12,334 nt of DNA. Source: Paracoccaceae bacterium. Its GTDB lineage: Bacteria; Pseudomonadota; Alphaproteobacteria; Rhodobacterales; Rhodobacteraceae. This document shows, one piece after another, positions 3,911 to 11,424 of this stretch (within the stretch, counting starts at the first letter, position 1; each line of letters begins with the position of its first letter). The stretch lies in the NCBI GenBank assembly GCA_026709725.1, contig JAPOSK010000590.1:1-12334 (forward strand), written 5' to 3'. The notes under the pieces were generated by a model. It worked only from the letters and a program-made list of their open reading frames with translations, was not told where the DNA came from and did not search any database. Both the position numbers and the translations under genes were made by a program.

Positions 3911-6900
3911 CTATTCATCGACAAAGGGTCTCAGGTTCCGTCCGCGGCTTGGGTTTTTGAGTTTGCGCAGGGCCTTGGCCTCAATCTGGCGGATGCGTTC
4001 ACGGGTGACCTGGAATTCGCGGCCAACCTCTTCGAGTGTGTTCTCTGAAGGGACGCCAATGCCAAATCGCAGGCGGAGGACCCGTTCCTCGCGGGGTGTC
4101 AGGGTGGCGAGGACACGGCAGGTTGTTTCCTTCAGACTGCTCTGGATGGCACTCTCCAGCGGCAGCATGGCCTGCTTGTCTTCGATGAAATCCCCCAACT
4201 GGCTGTCCTCCTCATCACCAACCGGTGACTGGAGACTCGACGGCTCCTTGGCAATCTTCATGACCTTGCGGACCTTGTCGAGGGGCATCCCGAGTTTCTC
4301 AGCCAACTCTTCGGGATTGGGTTCCCGTTTCAATTCAAGTTGCAGCTGTCGGGATGTCCGGTTGAGTTTGTTGATGGTCTCAATCATATGGACCGGGATC
4401 CGGATTGTTTTGGCCTGATCGGCAATTGAACGGGTGATGGCCTGCCGAATCCACCAGGTGGCATAGGTCGAGAACTTAAATCCTTTCCGGTATTCGAACT
4501 TGTCGGTCGCCTTCATGAGACCAATGTTGCCTTCCTGGATGAGGTCAAGCAGTTGCAGACCCTTGTTGGTGTATTTCTTGGAGATTGAAATCACCAGACG
4601 CAGATTGGCCTCAATCATCTCGTTTTTTGCCAGATTGGCCTCGTATTCGCCCTTCTTCAGTCGGGCATAAAGGCTGGTGAACTCAATATCACCATGGTCG
4701 CGCACGACGCCGGCAACGGGCAATTCCGGCAGAATTGCATGGTTCATGGGGGGTATGCCGTGCCCGAGCTTAAGTCCGACGTATTTACAGAGTCCGATGT
4801 ATTTCTCACGAACTGCCTCAACCCGATCCTGATGCTTTTCAATCAGGTCTTTCCAGCCCCGCCTGCCCAGCAATGACCGTTTCTTGTACCACAAGGGTTC
4901 GAGTTCATGACCCTGCCAGGCCTCGCGAAAATCCTTGCGATTGATTCGGCACCGGTCCGCCAGGCGGATCAGGTCCATCCGCAATGTCTGGAATTCGCTG
5001 TTGACCTTCTCAAGTTCCTCAATCAGTGTTTCAACACGTCGGCTGTGCAGATGCACCTGCTGAAGAAACGAGATCATGTCATTGCGGAGACGGATATAAC
5101 GGCCCTCCTGGGCTTTGGTGAAGCGGGCGATTTCCCCTGCTTCCTTGGCAATGCGCTTGTTCTGTATATCCTCCAGCTCCTTGCAGTACAGACTGATCGA
5201 ATCAAGCATCGCCATGACCTGATCACGAATCTCATTCTCCATTTCGGCAATGGTGGGACCGGTCCCTGATTCAGGATCGGGATTGCCCGGATCACCATCG
5301 GTGCCGCTTCCGCCCTCGCTGAATACATTGCCAGCCTTGCTGCCGGGCCAGTCATTGGCATCGACGGCAGAAATAATGCCGGCCTTGTTGAATTTTTCGT
5401 ATGTTGACTCGATGTTGATCTTGTCGGCCAACCCGACATTGTCTGTGCCCAGCTTCTCATTCCAGGAGGCGATCTCCCACATGGTCATTGGCAACTCGGT
5501 CAGCTTTCCGATCAGGGCATCCCGTTTTTCACGTTTGATCAGTCCCTTGATTGTAAACCAGTCGGTGGGAAAGAGTTGCCGGAATGTCTGATAGTTCACG
5601 CCGGCATCGAATCCGATATCCGAAATTTCCCGTCGCAGCCGGTTGACCTCATCAATCAGTGCCAGTTCCTTGGCAAGGCGCGACCAGCCGGCACCGGTCT
5701 GACGACCGCTGCGCTCCCTGAGCCCTGTGTCGTGCAGGTTGCTGTCAATAAACACATCCATCTCGCCGGGATCAATACTCATGCGCTGGGCGAATTTGCG
5801 TGTCTGGCTCCGAATGCGGTTCAGGGTTTTGTTGACATCCCTGCTTTGATCACACATCACATCGATCAGATTGGCGCTGAATGTGAGTTTCCTGAACTGG
5901 CTGGTCAGGCTGTCACATTCATTGAAGTAGCATATCTTGCTGGCCTCCAGCTCCTTGTCACCGCTGTTGATGAGCAAACGGACAGTGAATTGTTCCTTGA
6001 TCCTCACGCAGCGCTTGGCTTGCCGGTCGATCTGATTAAGCAGGGTCCGGGTTTTCTCATCCTGTTTCTGGCCCTCAACGAGGGTCATATCCTCCAGCCC
6101 CATGGCTTCGGTATCAACCAGGGCTGACAGGGGAAGATGACCCTGGCGGAACTCCATGTAGGTCTCAAGAAAGGCATCGACAAGGATCATCGAACTGCCG
6201 AATTCCGTGACCAGGCGCTGGCGGAGTGCCAGCGGATCCTGCTTGGCCTGTTTGATCAGTTTTGCCGGTGTGGCCCTGCGGAATGATTCCGGATCAGATT
6301 TCACCGCCTCAACAAAAGATTTCATGTCAGCAAGGAGCGTGGCAAAAACACCGGCCTTGTCACAGTCAATGGTCTGCCAGGCTGACGCATTCTTGCTCTT
6401 GATGACCGAACGCCAGTTGCTCCTGCGGCAATTGGCGACAACTGTATCAAAAAAGTCAGCCCGACTGATCTTGTGTTTCTTGGCCTCCTCGGCGATGCGG
6501 GATTGGAGTTCCTGCCAGTCATTCCATCTTTCAACAAGCTTGGTGATGCTGGCTTCGACTTCGCGGTGCCTGAAGACAATGGGTGTCAGCACATGAAGCA
6601 ATTCCTTCTTGGCCTTGACCAGCTGACGCTCCTGGGCCGCTGTAAACCGGTCATTCCTGCCGCAGATATAATCAAGTCGAGACGTGTTCAGATCACGAAA
6701 CCTTCGAAACTTCTGACGGTACGACTTCAGGATTTTTCGTGCGGCTGCTGCGGGATCAGCACAGGTGTCCTGACCAAGTCGGGACGTGTTCAGATTGATG
6801 ACGCTCTCCAGAGCACGCTTGCCACGCTCAATGGCGGCAAACCCGCCATCGACATCGTAAAGGAACATGTCATGGCCCTGAATCTCGGATTCCATCCTGG

Positions 6901-9145
6901 CCTGCGCCTGCAGTGATTTGCGGTAAAGCGAGACATTGCCGACCAGGATTTCCAGCTCCGATGGTGTCAGACCGGTTTGACGTATGCAGTCCCGCAACTT
7001 GCGAATCAGGGCCGGCAGGTCATTGCGCAACTTCAAGTTCAATTGTGTCCAGTATGTGCCCCCCTGCTTCTCAAGCTGTTTGAACCAGTCCGGATCTTCG
7101 GAGGACTGATAGAGGATTCGACGCAGTGATTCGGACCCCACCCGCTCGCGATTGGCGATCTGATTCAACGCAGCATCAATCTTCACATAGCGATTGTGGA
7201 TTTGTGAAACGCGCTGGATCAGCATGGAGTTCTGGTTTTCATGCAGGGCAAACGAATCGCATAACGCCTTGATATCGGCCCGTTGCCTGATTTCGGATTC
7301 GAGCAGGGCCGGCTGGTTTTTTTGCAGGCGTGACAATTCGAGTTTCAGCAGAGATTTGTCGCGTGGAAGATGCGTCTGAACCCGCTCGGCAATCTGGGCA
7401 ATCCGGCTGATAACCTCGGATCCCACCACTTTTTCCATGTCAAGAACCCCGGGCCGACGAAATGAACGCCAGGTGGCTTCAACATCTATGACATCCCGCA
7501 GCGTTGCCTCACCATCCAGAATCTCCTGATACCAGACGGCGATGGCCTTGTAGGTCCGCGGGCTGGTGGAGAGTGCGGCAAACACTTCCTTCTCACCCGC
7601 TTCAATACGCTTGGCGATTGCAATCTCTCCTTCACGGGACAGCAGATCGACATGACTCATTTCCTGGAGATACATCCGAACGGGATCGTTGCTTCGATCA
7701 ACTGCGGTGCTGCCCGTGCTGAATTCGACAAGGTCACCCCGGTCGCTTTCCTTGCCCTCGATCTCTCCGTTGTCCCGCTCCCGCTCCTGCGTGAGGTCGG
7801 TTTCATCATCAGCCCCATGACGATCACCATCGCGGTGATGGAGGCCGTCATGGTCCCACTCGCTGTCATCAGCATAGATGCTGGTATTTGGCAGACCGAT
7901 GATCGTGCGCAGATACTGTTGGGCGAATGCAAAAAAGTCACCCTGGGCATGATGATATGAGTCGACCGCCTGGGCAGTTCCGTCGGCGGCCCTGCTCCTC
8001 ACCCCGGATTCGCGCGGGTGAATGTCTTTCTTTTCGGCAATGATTTCATCAAGGATCGGGCGGAAATGCACCCTGAGCTCTTCCCGGGCCGCTTCAATCT
8101 TCCCGTGCGTTGTTGTGGCTGTCTCGGCATGCGTCCGGAATTCATCGGTGTTGAGGCCGGTTTTGACGCAGATCGCTTCCATGCGCCCGGCCAGATCAGC
8201 AGATTCTTCCCCGGCCAGTTTGGCCAGTTTCTGCCATGGTTCCGCCGTCTCTTCCGCAAGCCAGTCCGGCTGCAATTCCCTGCCATGCCAGGCGGAACGG
8301 AAATCCTCGACGCTGATCCCCGCCTTCCCCGCGAGTTCGAGCCAGCGGGTCTCCACAGTCGCGATTTCTTCCTGCAGGGCGGTGATTGATCCGAGCTGAT
8401 CGCCTATGACAGGACGATAGAAGGAAATCTTCGCCGTTGTTTCGCGAAGCTCGCCGCGGACCCGGAGATACCGCCGGGCCTGGGCCTTTGTGTAGCGCTG
8501 CGCGCGCCCGGACAGGTGCTCAAGGTACCGCTCGTGCAGCCCCCTGTATTCCTCATGAATCCGTGCCATGCGCGCCAGTGTGCGATCAAGCACCTGCCGC
8601 TCCCTGTCGCTCAGCTTGCCTTTTGTTCCCTGCAGCATATGGGCCATGGAACTGTAGGAACGGATACCGTTCTTGCCCATTGCAATCTTCGCCGGCCGTT
8701 TCTGGACTTCGGCCAGTGTGTCGACAAAATCATCCAGATCAATATCGCCGCTCTGAACGCGTCCATACCAGTCGGTCAGGATGCCTGATGCATGGGGAAT
8801 CTGGCAGAGTGCATCGTGGAATTCATCACCAAGGGCACCCAGGGTCCGGCTCAGGGACTTTTCGGTCTCCCGGGAATAATCCTCGGGCACATCATAGGGA
8901 TCAGTATCATCAGGACGACCGGTTCCATGACCGTTCGGGCTGATACCATCAGCGCTTTTCAGCCCTTCCGCAAGAATCGACACACCATTGTCCCGAAGCC
9001 GATCCTTGATGTTGTCAATCTGGCCTGAATCATAGTTGATTCCCTGGAGCTGCACCGTCAACTCCGCATCATCAATGCAGCCCTGTCTCCTGGCTTTCAG
9101 AAACAGCTCTCGAAGTGTGACCTCGGTCTGACTCGTCTCTTCCAT
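3911..9145 (-). CDS. rpoD: Giant primary sigma factor RpoD with five tandem copies of the sigma70 non-conserved domain
   Basis: RpoD directs RNA polymerase to housekeeping promoters. This copy has 1744 residues (roughly 200 kDa), nearly three times the usual size, in one uninterrupted frame. Order of parts: region 1.1 (1-65); a first diverged NCR copy (about 91-360); a charged linker rich in H and D (361-486); canonical region 1.2 beginning DPVRMYL (487-516); NCR copies two to five (517-756, 757-973, 974-1204, 1205-1464); an unusual proline-containing insert (about 1461-1490); and intact regions 2.1-4.2. In the core, [17 protein letters not shown] (1561-1577) covers regions 2.3-2.4 and [18 protein letters not shown] (1713-1730) is the -35 recognition helix area. 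The ATG at 9145 has GGAGG nine bases upstream and gives a proper region 1.1. It lies 257 bases below dnaG, the classical partner in the macromolecular synthesis operon. The core identity is certain; the five-copy reading rests on hand alignment. Confidence 0.97.
3914..4660 (-). other. RpoD core, regions 2.1 to 4.2
   Basis: Residues 1496-1744. Region 2 starts in [15 protein letters not shown] and contains [18 protein letters not shown] (1514-1531), the beta'-binding [13 protein letters not shown] (1534-1546) and the aromatic -10 melting motif. Region 3 is about 1580-1665, including [14 protein letters not shown] (1643-1656). Region 4 is about 1668-1744 with helix-turn-helix TLEEVGREF...RERIRQIE. 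It is highly conserved, with no missing key residue, so the protein should function as a sigma factor. Confidence 0.97.
4754..5533 (-). repeat. NCR copy 5 of RpoD, joined to region 2
   Basis: Residues 1205-1464. The front motif is [13 protein letters not shown] (1216-1228) with [11 protein letters not shown] (1239-1249). A glycine- and aspartate-rich insert (about 1263-1300) makes this copy longer than the others. The rest is the most canonical NCR of the five: [10 protein letters not shown] (1341-1350), [13 protein letters not shown] (1405-1417) and RRGWKDL with W1431. Confidence 0.92.
5534..6226 (-). repeat. NCR copy 4 of RpoD (most diverged)
   Basis: Residues 974-1204. The front motif is [16 protein letters not shown] (999-1014). 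The tail is GAGWSRL with W1154, followed by helices to about 1190. The 79-residue block (about 1064-1142) lacks the closing tryptophan, with leucine in its place, yet the spacing from that leucine to W1154 is again 12, as in copies 2, 3 and 5. Identity is low, so this copy rests mainly on position, spacing and motif order. Confidence 0.75.
6227..6877 (-). repeat. NCR copy 3 of RpoD
   Basis: Residues 757-973. The front motif survives as [16 protein letters not shown] (773-788), aligned to [15 protein letters not shown] (544-558). The 79-residue block 833-911 opens RFTAAQER, closely like RFTKAQEG in copy 5, and ends in W911; W923 lies 12 residues on. The internal hexapeptide LNTSRL occurs twice (785-790 and 819-824). 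Confidence 0.87.
6673..6795. repeat. Pair of 21-base in-frame direct repeats inside rpoD
   Basis: The segments 6673-6693 and 6775-6795 are identical except at one base and lie 102 bases (34 codons) apart in frame. Each encodes a copy of LNTSRL followed by D or G. Elsewhere the NCR copies show no obvious nucleotide similarity to one another, so this near-identical pair stands out. Confidence 0.85.
6878..7597 (-). repeat. NCR copy 2 of RpoD
   Basis: Residues 517-756. The front motif, with the conserved glycine at 545 and LRDVID..AT, is canonical. The 79-residue block is 609-687, ending PDW, and the conserved tryptophan W699 follows 12 residues after W687. The tail [16 protein letters not shown] (723-738) resembles the segment that normally leads into region 2.1 (ETGLEIGEFRRIVQMV in typical RpoD). 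Confidence 0.88.
7598..7687 (-). other. RpoD region 1.2 (canonical)
   Basis: Residues 487-516 ([10 protein letters not shown], then [17 protein letters not shown]) match sigma70 region 1.2, which contacts the promoter discriminator. This is the best-preserved segment upstream of the core and marks the functional copy, in contrast to the degenerate one at 91-110. Confidence 0.93.
7688..8065 (-). other. Charged linker between NCR copy 1 and region 1.2 of RpoD
   Basis: Residues 361-486 are mostly hydrophilic and low in complexity, probably disordered. The stretch 429-450 is dominated by aspartate and histidine (for example [14 protein letters not shown]), followed by an acidic E/D/R-rich run to 472. 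An acidic linker normally separates regions 1.1 and 1.2, so this may be its displaced counterpart. Confidence 0.6.
8066..8875 (-). repeat. NCR copy 1 of RpoD, preceded by a degenerate region 1.2
   Basis: Residues 91-360. SRETE at 91-95 lines up without gaps with SREGE at 503-507 of true region 1.2. After that, DALCQIPH...WYGRV...LDDFVD (111-142) lines up with AALSTSPR...WYQEI...LRDVID (523-554). Block 217-295 aligns without gaps to block 1341-1419 in copy 5, with about 24 of 79 residues identical by my count, including R.TKAQ..RY and DFR.AW.G.EL.P.W. The copy therefore appears to be a duplication of region 1.2 plus NCR placed before the functional region 1.2. Confidence 0.85.
8951..9145 (-). 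other. RpoD region 1.1
   Basis: Residues 1-65 form the acidic-basic helical bundle of sigma region 1.1, which occupies the DNA channel of free holoenzyme. The pattern [19 protein letters not shown] (11-29), with an [10 protein letters not shown] stretch following, fits the family. Its presence at the usual N-terminal place argues that the long frame is one real protein and not a fusion of unrelated genes. Confidence 0.8.
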
Positions 9146-9402: not shown

Positions 9403-11424
9403 CTATGCCTTGTTGAGCTCTTCCCGCAGGGCATCCAGATCTGCATCCGGTATGGACTGGCGTGTAGAGATTTCGCCGGCGGGCTGCCGCTGCCGTGATC
9501 GCCGCCCGGGGCTCGGGATATTCATTTCCAGTTCAATCTGCTCAAGATCGTTTTTGCTCACCGTAACCTGACCAAGGGTTACGCGCTCCGCCGCCTCAGG
9601 ATTCGCTGCCAGCCGTTGCTGCAGACCGGCTTTGTGATGAAACAACTGCTCTGCGGAGTGTTCACAACTGACCTCGGCATCCATGCTGTCAATGGCGGCA
9701 ACCAGATCCTCTGCCCGATTCCATGATTCCAGCCGGAACAGCACATCCTCAAGGAGATGTTTCGCTTCCTCACCCCGACCGCTCCCGGTGAGTTCTGGCT
9801 GAATACTCAACTGCTTCAATCCAAGCAATCTGTCGATTTCCACCCTCCCCACGCGCTCGTTGAGCGCTGCAACAAGATCAACATTCTCCAATCCCGACTC
9901 ACTGTGAATTTCCATGAGGGTCGAGAGAATCTGCTGATGGGCATGGACTGCAGGCAATTCCAGACCTTCCAGTCTCGCCATGTTGACATCAATCAACTCC
10001 GGGTGATGGATACAGAGGACAAGAGCGAGGGCGGAATCAAAATATCTCGGTGACTCCTGAAGATACCCGTCAGTTATCATGACCTCCGCCCGGCCCTTTG
10101 CGATGTCCGTCTGGTCCTGGACCTGTGCGGATTTGGTCGATTTCCGCAGAATGTCATTCCAGACCCGATCCTTGATGTGGGCAAGATAGCTCTTGCGCAC
10201 ATCACTGTTCTCAATGCGACTGATGGTCTGTTTGAGTTCCTGCTGCAGTTTGGCCTGGTGATCCGGTGACGCCAGATCGCGGCCGCGAACATACCGGCCC
10301 CACAGGAAATCGGCAAAACTCACACCATTGCTGAGGAGGTGTCGAAAGGCATCCGTCCCCGATTGACGAAGGACATCATCAGGATCAAGACCGTCGGGCA
10401 GGATGCAGAATTGCAGGCTGAAGCCCGGTTTGAGGAGCGGCAGTGCCAGATGCATGGTCCGGTCGGCTGCCCGCTGCCCCGCTTCATCGCCGTCAAGACA
10501 CAAAATCGGAGTCTGGTGCATCTGCCACAACTGCAACAGGTGGCTGTCCGTGATTGCAGTTCCGAGAGGTGCAACGCTGCGGGCGATCCCCGCTTCCGAG
10601 AGGGCCATCACATCAAGATATCCCTCTGTGACAATGAGCGGCTCTGTCCGCAGCGGCACCGACCTTGCGGTCTGGTGATTGAAGAGAACCGTGCCCTTGT
10701 TGAACAGTTCGGTAGCGGGTGAATTCAGGTATTTGGCCGGTTCGCCGTCCTTCATGGCCCGACCGCCAAATGCAATGATGCGTCCCTTGAGATCGGTGAT
10801 CGGAATCATCAGGCGATCCCGGAAGACAGGATACAATCCATTGCCCGAACCGGACTCCCGGGCCAGACCCGCAGCAATCAGCTGCCGGCTGGTGATGCCA
10901 TCACTCCGGCACATCTCAAGCAGATGCCTGGTATCGGGTGCATAGCCGATGCCAAACTGTGCAAGAGTCTCCTGCTTGAAGCCCCGACCGAGGATGTAGT
11001 CGTGGGCCCGCCGCCCCACACTCTCATGCAGGCACCGCTGAAAATAGCCATTTGCCCGTTCCAGCAATCGCAGCAGTGCCTCACGTGCAGAGGCCTGCTG
11101 GCGATCTGCCGGTGTTTCCTCGGGAACTGCCATGCCGGCAAGGTTGGCAAGATGCTCCACCGATTCACGGAAATCCATCCTGCGGTGCTGTTCAAGGAAC
11201 GTAAATGCATTTCCGCTCGCATGACAGCCGAAGCAGTAATATGTCCCCCGACTTTCCGTGACATGAAATGACGGCGTCTTTTCCCTGTGGAATGGGCAAC
11301 AGGCCCAATAGTCACCATTCGCCGGCCTTGATTTGCGCCCGTCCCAGTTGACAAACTGCCCGATGACCCGTGAAATCGAGGTTCGCGCTTTCAGATCATC
11401 AATGAATGCTTGCGGGATGGACAT
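9403..11424 (-). CDS. dnaG: DNA primase
   Basis: DnaG makes the RNA primers for chromosome replication and works with the DnaB helicase at the fork. The 673-residue protein shows the complete family layout. The N-terminal zinc-binding domain has C43, H46, C64 and C67 (CPFH and CFGC). The RNA polymerase domain includes FRDRLMIPITDLKGRIIAFGGRAM-type sequence (about 201-224) and KYLNSPATELF (231-241). The Toprim fold has E267 in VTEGYLDVM and D311/D313 in LDGDEAGQRA, the metal-binding acidic residues. DPDDVLR (348-353) ends the Toprim region. The remaining part, about 480-673, is the less conserved helicase-binding region, as expected. Its start at 11424 lacks a strong ribosome binding site, and the gene follows the DUF6476-like gene after 53 bases, so coupling or cotranscription is likely. 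A terminator-like hairpin follows. Confidence 0.98.
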   Translation of the reverse strand: MSIPQAFIDDLKARTSISRVIGQFVNWDGRKSRPANGDYWACCPFHREKTPSFHVTESRGTYYCFGCHASGNAFTFLEQHRRMDFRESVEHLANLAGMAVPEETPADRQQASAREALLRLLERANGYFQRCLHESVGRRAHDYILGRGFKQETLAQFGIGYAPDTRHLLEMCRSDGITSRQLIAAGLARESGSGNGLYPVFRDRLMIPITDLKGRIIAFGGRAMKDGEPAKYLNSPATELFNKGTVLFNHQTARSVPLRTEPLIVTEGYLDVMALSEAGIARSVAPLGTAITDSHLLQLWQMHQTPILCLDGDEAGQRAADRTMHLALPLLKPGFSLQFCILPDGLDPDDVLRQSGTDAFRHLLSNGVSFADFLWGRYVRGRDLASPDHQAKLQQELKQTISRIENSDVRKSYLAHIKDRVWNDILRKSTKSAQVQDQTDIAKGRAEVMITDGYLQESPRYFDSALALVLCIHHPELIDVNMARLEGLELPAVHAHQQILSTLMEIHSESGLENVDLVAALNERVGRVEIDRLLGLKQLSIQPELTGSGRGEEAKHLLEDVLFRLESWNRAEDLVAAIDSMDAEVSCEHSAEQLFHHKAGLQQRLAANPEAAERVTLGQVTVSKNDLEQIELEMNIPSPGRRSRQRQPAGEISTRQSIPDADLDALREELNKA

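Follow-up and report, generated by a model that had tools for sequence, protein, structure and literature searches.

A 1744-residue primary sigma factor with five copies of the non-conserved region and a degenerate second sigma2 domain in marine Rhodobacteraceae

Introduction

Few bacterial proteins are as constrained as the primary sigma factors, and their non-conserved region (NCR) is usually regarded as a single dispensable insert. Here we describe an rpoD gene that departs from this plan. It lies in a 12,334-nucleotide stretch of DNA from a Paracoccaceae bacterium (contig JAPOSK010000590.1 of assembly GCA_026709725.1), hereafter called the window, for which an original prediction made from the letters alone had proposed a primary sigma factor of 1744 residues with five NCR copies.

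RNA polymerase has other inserts of this kind. In Escherichia coli, the DNA-loading gate opens by movement of sigma1.2 and the NCR or of the beta-lobe and sequence insertion 1 (SI1), and the NCR contacts the beta' clamp toe, as described in sections of PMC7822876. According to excerpts of PMC2939025, SI1 and SI3 grow by tandem copies whose number is lineage specific; SI1 is predicted to have between one and six BBM2 units in different bacteria, and SI3 is made of SBHM repeats. The SI3 of cyanobacteria is enlarged, extends to sigma2 and stabilises the open complex (sections of PMC10120043).

Results

Domain order of the giant RpoD

The open reading frame (ORF) at positions 3911..9145 of the window, on the minus strand like all features given below, is translated into 1744 residues without an internal stop, which is about 2.5 times the usual size of a main sigma factor. 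Pfam placed regions 1.1 (residues 9-61), 1.2 (487-520), 2 (1510-1579), 3 (1589-1664) and 4 (1678-1730) in this order, all above cut-off, as in a group 1 primary sigma70 factor, and the NCBIfam RpoD model NF004208 gave the protein 800.7 bits against a cut-off of 555. The protein clearly belongs to the primary sigma70 family, as originally predicted. Region 1.1 (8963..9121; PF03979, 25.4 bits, cut-off 22.5) stands at the N terminus. Region 1.2 (residues 486-517, 7595..7690; PF00140) is separated by 991 residues from the 2.1 motif, close to the 980 or so estimated by eye, and regions 2.1 to 2.4 (residues 1488-1580, 4406..4684; PF04542), region 3 (4154..4381; PF04539) and region 4 (3956..4114; PF04545) close the protein. 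Among the positions invariant in 27 ordinary RpoDs, the protein (P0001) keeps 27 of 30 in region 1.2 and 80 of 87 in regions 2 to 4, so that the core is intact, as had been proposed. The architecture, regions 1.1 to 4 with five NCR copies, is near certain; with its five NCR copies and its second sigma2 domain, the protein departs from the usual plan of one of each.

The additional copies are homologous to the NCR

The Pfam family of this region, Sigma70_ner (PF04546), matched six stretches of the protein (E 9.8e-38). Taken alone, Pfam reached an E value of 1e-3 for only two of the five copies. A hidden Markov model (HMM) was built from 28 of 30 ordinary alphaproteobacterial RpoD loci, leaving out two (L011 and L020) in which the cutting motifs were unmatched. 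It found five cores, at residues 178-338 (57.3 bits), 570-734 (34.5 bits), 806-958 (39.7 bits), 1037-1191 (28.5 bits) and 1208-1460 (152.9 bits); the top domain over 200 shuffles of the protein scored 2.1 bits. Profile-profile alignment of the five units with an ordinary RpoD profile (hhalign) gave probabilities of 99.1 to 100, and the five reversed controls 0.2 to 4.1. All five units are NCR homologous as judged by these comparisons, which excludes a single NCR set among unrelated sequence. The tryptophans at 304, 699, 923, 1154 and 1431 and the front motifs on which the original prediction relied are all at the positions that it gave.

Four copies follow one another between regions 1.2 and 2: copy 2 (residues 518-745, 6911..7594; hhalign probability 99.8), copy 3 (746-972, 6230..6910; 99.1), copy 4 (973-1205, 5531..6229; 99.4) and copy 5 (1206-1487, 4685..5530; 100). 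Copy 5 is the nearest to the ordinary NCR, with a mean identity of 27-29%, against 16-20% for the other copies, and identity between copy positions is about 10-23%.

Copy 1 (core at 8132..8614) lies ahead of region 1.2, as predicted, and is NCR derived. In contrast with the prediction, it is not a free NCR: it belongs to a sigma2 domain, complete but degenerate (1.2'-NCR-2.4'), that spans residues 86-420 (7886..8890). This domain keeps 15 of 64 conserved region 2 positions and 9 of 28 region 1.2' positions, and both region 2.3 tryptophans are substituted, which is not what a working sigma2 would look like. Since copy 1 sits inside it, a whole domain was duplicated besides the NCR array. The best structural match of both predicted models is the GcrA-bound sigma2 of Caulobacter. 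An acidic linker at residues 426-485 (7691..7870; net charge -14), predicted to be disordered (predicted local distance difference test below 50), connects the degenerate domain to region 1.2.

The giant RpoD is real and is the only RpoD found in its genus

The source is a fragmented metagenome-assembled genome (MAG; 634 contigs, 79.87% complete). An assembly or annotation artefact, the former named in the original prediction as a possible objection, can be dismissed almost entirely. The 1744-residue protein, with changes only at residues 812 and 1072, was found on a contig of 3,453,898 bases, an orthologue lies on the single 3.64-Mb chromosome OY282431.1 (genome G007), and six further genomes of the genus carry the orthologue as one frame. 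The genus is represented here by nine genomes, including the source. Seven of the eight others thus have an uninterrupted giant rpoD of 1565-1812 codons, counted from stop to stop, and in the eighth (G001) the rpoD frame ends at a contig edge after 883 codons. Among the 16 giant relatives P0002-P0017, seven are recorded with contigs longer than 1 Mb.

A second rpoD of normal length, a further objection raised at the outset, was not found. The source genome, 80% complete, has a single Sigma70_r2 match. In the nine genomes of the genus there are 21 such matches: eight giant RpoDs, eight RpoH-like proteins (300-325 codons) and five short ones (186-219 codons), and no second RpoD is among them, the non-giant frames having 186-325 codons. 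The giant RpoD would act as the housekeeping sigma factor of the genus. Each genome (G000-G008) has a small sigma set, made of the giant RpoD, one RpoH-like sigma and at most one short sigma; the RpoH-like sigma was not found in the incomplete G000.

The genus belongs to the uncultured marine Rhodobacteraceae. The bins CAR1_bin20 and CAR3_bin23 come from a sponge MAG set according to sections of PMC10235432, and by this bin naming the genus record CAR1_bin_2 is likely of sponge origin, for that one record.

In the genomes scanned, no tandem copies were seen outside the genus

We scanned 394 genomes of the family, from 393 genera, and found an NCR match in 378, frame lengths being those among the matches listed. 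In the table, more than one NCR appears in five of the 394: two members of the genus and the genomes G016, G025 and G072. In G016 and G025 a single NCR was matched in pieces, the frames having 724 and 708 codons. In G072 two NCR-bearing frames (547 and 485 codons) stand on different contigs. Three family genomes scored as at least 93% complete (G100, G344 and G226) have no RpoD-like match to P0001, probably because of gaps. A sample of 130 genomes of the phylum gave an NCR match in 128, and the longest frame apart from the giant RpoD of the source genome has 840 codons. Contig C2 of G468 has two NCR-bearing frames of equal score, 626 and 744 codons long. Since Pfam alone catches two of the five copies, highly diverged arrays elsewhere could escape the family and phylum scans. 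Our searches of the open-licence papers in PubMed Central (PMC) yielded no sigma factor with tandem NCRs or two sigma2 domains, in line with the statement in the original prediction that none was known.

Copy number, history and selection

The number of copies is four or five depending on the sub-clade, which goes beyond the original prediction. Nine proteins (P0008, P0009 and P0011-P0017), those of the four-copy sub-clade, lack copy 3, which they may have lost or never gained. In P0010, copy 3 scored 9.8 bits, below the 12-bit line, or gave no core hit, so that the HMM counted four copies; we treated this protein as five-copy by position, its array being equal in length to that of P0007, and only its copies 1, 2, 4 and 5 entered the tree of copies. 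In this tree, c2, c4/x and c5 form clades by position (support 0.812, 0.998 and 0.981, respectively), and c1 and c3 are mixed with weak support. As copies 2, 4 and 5 cluster by position across sub-clades whose giant RpoDs share 32-37% identity, most of the array is older than the radiation of the genus.

Within the four-copy sub-clade, the dN/dS ratios of three closely related pairs ranged from 0 to 0.194 in all ten segments, two of five pairs being saturated; these values cover that sub-clade only, and hence do not include copy 3. The giant RpoD is thus under purifying selection in one sub-clade. The segment comparison also gave higher rates of change for the inserts than for the core.

Two other subunits of RNA polymerase are enlarged

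RpoB has 1784-1911 codons in the five genomes of the genus with an intact rpoB frame, compared with 1383-1436 in five other members of the family. The growth lies in the SI1 segment, which has 520-699 residues in four genes of the genus (L111 of G006, L112 of G007, L113 of G005 and L118 of G002) and 175-176 in three ordinary ones. A profile of the ordinary SI1, with a maximum of 1.9 bits over 200 shuffles, detected repeats in all four. Three of these genes come from the four-copy sub-clade and hold three clear repeats each, with a further match of at most 2.2 bits; the RpoB of G007 has four clear ones plus two of about 5 bits. RpoC has an additional 85-100 residues, plus about 16-26 nearby, where SI3 sits, in all five genes of the genus examined (L094-L098, from G000, G007, G006, G003 and G005, respectively), and profile comparison revealed internal self-similarity in this block. 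In contrast, RpoA is of normal length, with 338-367 codons in seven of seven genomes of the genus and 343-394 in three others. Like the variable copy number, the joint enlargement of SI1 and SI3 had not been part of the original prediction.

The net charge of NCR2 and NCR3 is 0 to +17 in seven proteins, compared with a mean of -22 (range -35 to +3) for the ordinary NCR, and that of the SI1 segment in the genus is -22 to -28. These charges, neutral to basic for NCR2 and NCR3 and acidic for SI1, would fit a contact between them.

Gene neighbourhood

Upstream of rpoD, an ORF of 673 residues (9403..11424), of ordinary length for its kind, is presumably dnaG. On the other side of rpoD are ORFs that we take to be nrdR-, ribD-, ribE- and ribB-like by recognition, all on the minus strand.

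Discussion

The explanation that we favour, although we rate it a little short of an even chance, is that a housekeeping sigma factor grew by duplication of sigma2 and tandem duplication of the NCR, and that the array meets SI1 and SI3 as a gate or arch. The whole of sigma2 would have been duplicated, its N-terminal copy decaying into a pseudo-sigma2 that retained the fold. In another event, the NCR insert of the working sigma2 would have been tandemly duplicated, giving four copies here and three in one sub-clade. The array would lie on the same side of the main cleft as the clamp and meet the enlarged beta-lobe and SI1 opposite and perhaps SI3 too, and the extended DNA-loading gate or arch would govern DNA entry and hold the open complex. 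Enlargement of both gate arms together with SI3 in a single genus is read most simply, in functional terms, as a larger gate or arch. Taken apart from the architecture, this mechanism is tentative. It is similarly a possibility, on the doubtful side, that these parts evolved together to form a ring or arch that closes over the main cleft, an undescribed form of holoenzyme composed of four to five NCRs and the pseudo-sigma2, three to six SI1 motifs and the extra SI3 block. That the array serves as a scaffold or provides extra contacts around the holoenzyme, as originally proposed, is plausible.

Several observations weigh against a gate or arch. The sections of the paper on the SI3-sigma arch (PMC10120043) do not mention the NCR, and the cyanobacterial contact that they describe involves region 1.2 and the specificity loop. 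Per residue, the SI1 of the genus carries no more charge than its ordinary counterpart, and NCR4 and NCR5 lack a clearly basic character. The AlphaFold2 model of the giant RpoD has a predicted template-modelling score of 0.48, too low to fix the relative placement of the units. Finally, the copy number of SI1 and SI3 varies in many bacteria (excerpts of PMC2939025), and their growth may thus be independent of sigma.

The NCR copies and the pseudo-sigma2 might instead be separate docking sites for GcrA or other regulators, allowing one sigma factor to integrate several signals. GcrA is present in all nine genomes of the genus, and the match of both models to a GcrA-bound sigma2, the binding of Chlamydia GrgA to the NCR (sections of PMC7403470), the few sigma factors of the genus (21 matches in nine genomes) and the divergence of copies whose positions are kept would all agree with it. 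We nevertheless consider multivalent docking rather unlikely, because GcrA is single copy at the cut-off in most of these genomes and the growth of SI1 and SI3 is left unexplained. Moreover, GcrA is common in Alphaproteobacteria that have a single NCR.

Neutral growth is less likely still; drift in a host-associated lineage would have fixed duplications in non-essential inserts, which later proved hard to lose. The confinement of growth to known inserts (NCR, SI1 and SI3), the different copy numbers of the sub-clades and the low identity of about 10-23% between positions would be expected in this case. In contrast, dN/dS values of 0-0.194 in every tested segment, the persistence of the same copies while the sub-clades dropped to 32-37% identity, and the enlargement of three subunits but not of alpha argue against drift. 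Very unlikely, in our view, is that the enlarged inserts shield surfaces of the polymerase bound by phage or competitor proteins; growth on the outer surface and the faster evolution of the inserts could be read this way, but shielding would not require conserved copy positions.

A sole RpoD with four to five NCR copies under selection and a dead sigma2 indicates that RpoD tolerates and retains internal duplications. The copies have been diverged for long enough to specialise, which makes them a natural experiment on the role of the NCR, and with SI1 and SI3 grown in parallel, the idea of an altered DNA-loading gate can be tested directly. Together, the larger sigma and the two larger core subunits offer a hint that the DNA-loading machinery of transcription has been remodelled in this genus.

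Comparison with known systems

Other long primary-type sigma factors differ from this one in what they repeat. The proteins P0020-P0026 (1310-1994 residues) are also enlarged by repetition of a region of their own, but it is region 1.1, not the NCR, with one NCR stretch in each of the two scanned with Pfam (P0020 and P0021). They have 7-11 loose-motif matches for region 1.1 each, and Pfam gave E values of 2.7e-56 and 9.7e-39 for region 1.1 in P0020 and P0021. Among further long proteins, P0037 (1323 residues) and P0040 (1466 residues) combine DnaG primase and sigma70 Pfam domains, both precomputed, and may be DnaG-RpoD fusions; P0057 and P0090 are RpoD-like with precomputed ankyrin-type Pfam domains, and P0018 and P0028 are RpoD-like with long K/A-rich N-terminal extensions, that of P0028 being a run of near-identical short repeats.

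The giant RpoD resembles beta-SI1 and beta'-SI3 in that an insert module of the transcription machine has been multiplied in tandem (excerpts of PMC2939025), but the multiplied module is here in sigma. The cyanobacterial SI3-sigma arch, in which an enlarged insert bridges the main cleft to sigma2, is the working analogy; going by the sections of PMC10120043 that describe it, that arch is built from beta' alone, whereas in this genus sigma itself is enlarged and the contact is hypothetical. With the ordinary alphaproteobacterial RpoD, such as the Caulobacter sigma (PDB 5yix, 7ye1 and 9pgh), the giant RpoD shares the order of regions, an NCR position between 1.2 and 2.1 and a dnaG neighbour, and its copy 5 and core align to that protein. 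In the genomes sampled, the ordinary RpoD is mostly 650-850 codons long and carries a single NCR, in contrast with the five NCR copies, the degenerate sigma2 and the 1744 residues of the protein described here.
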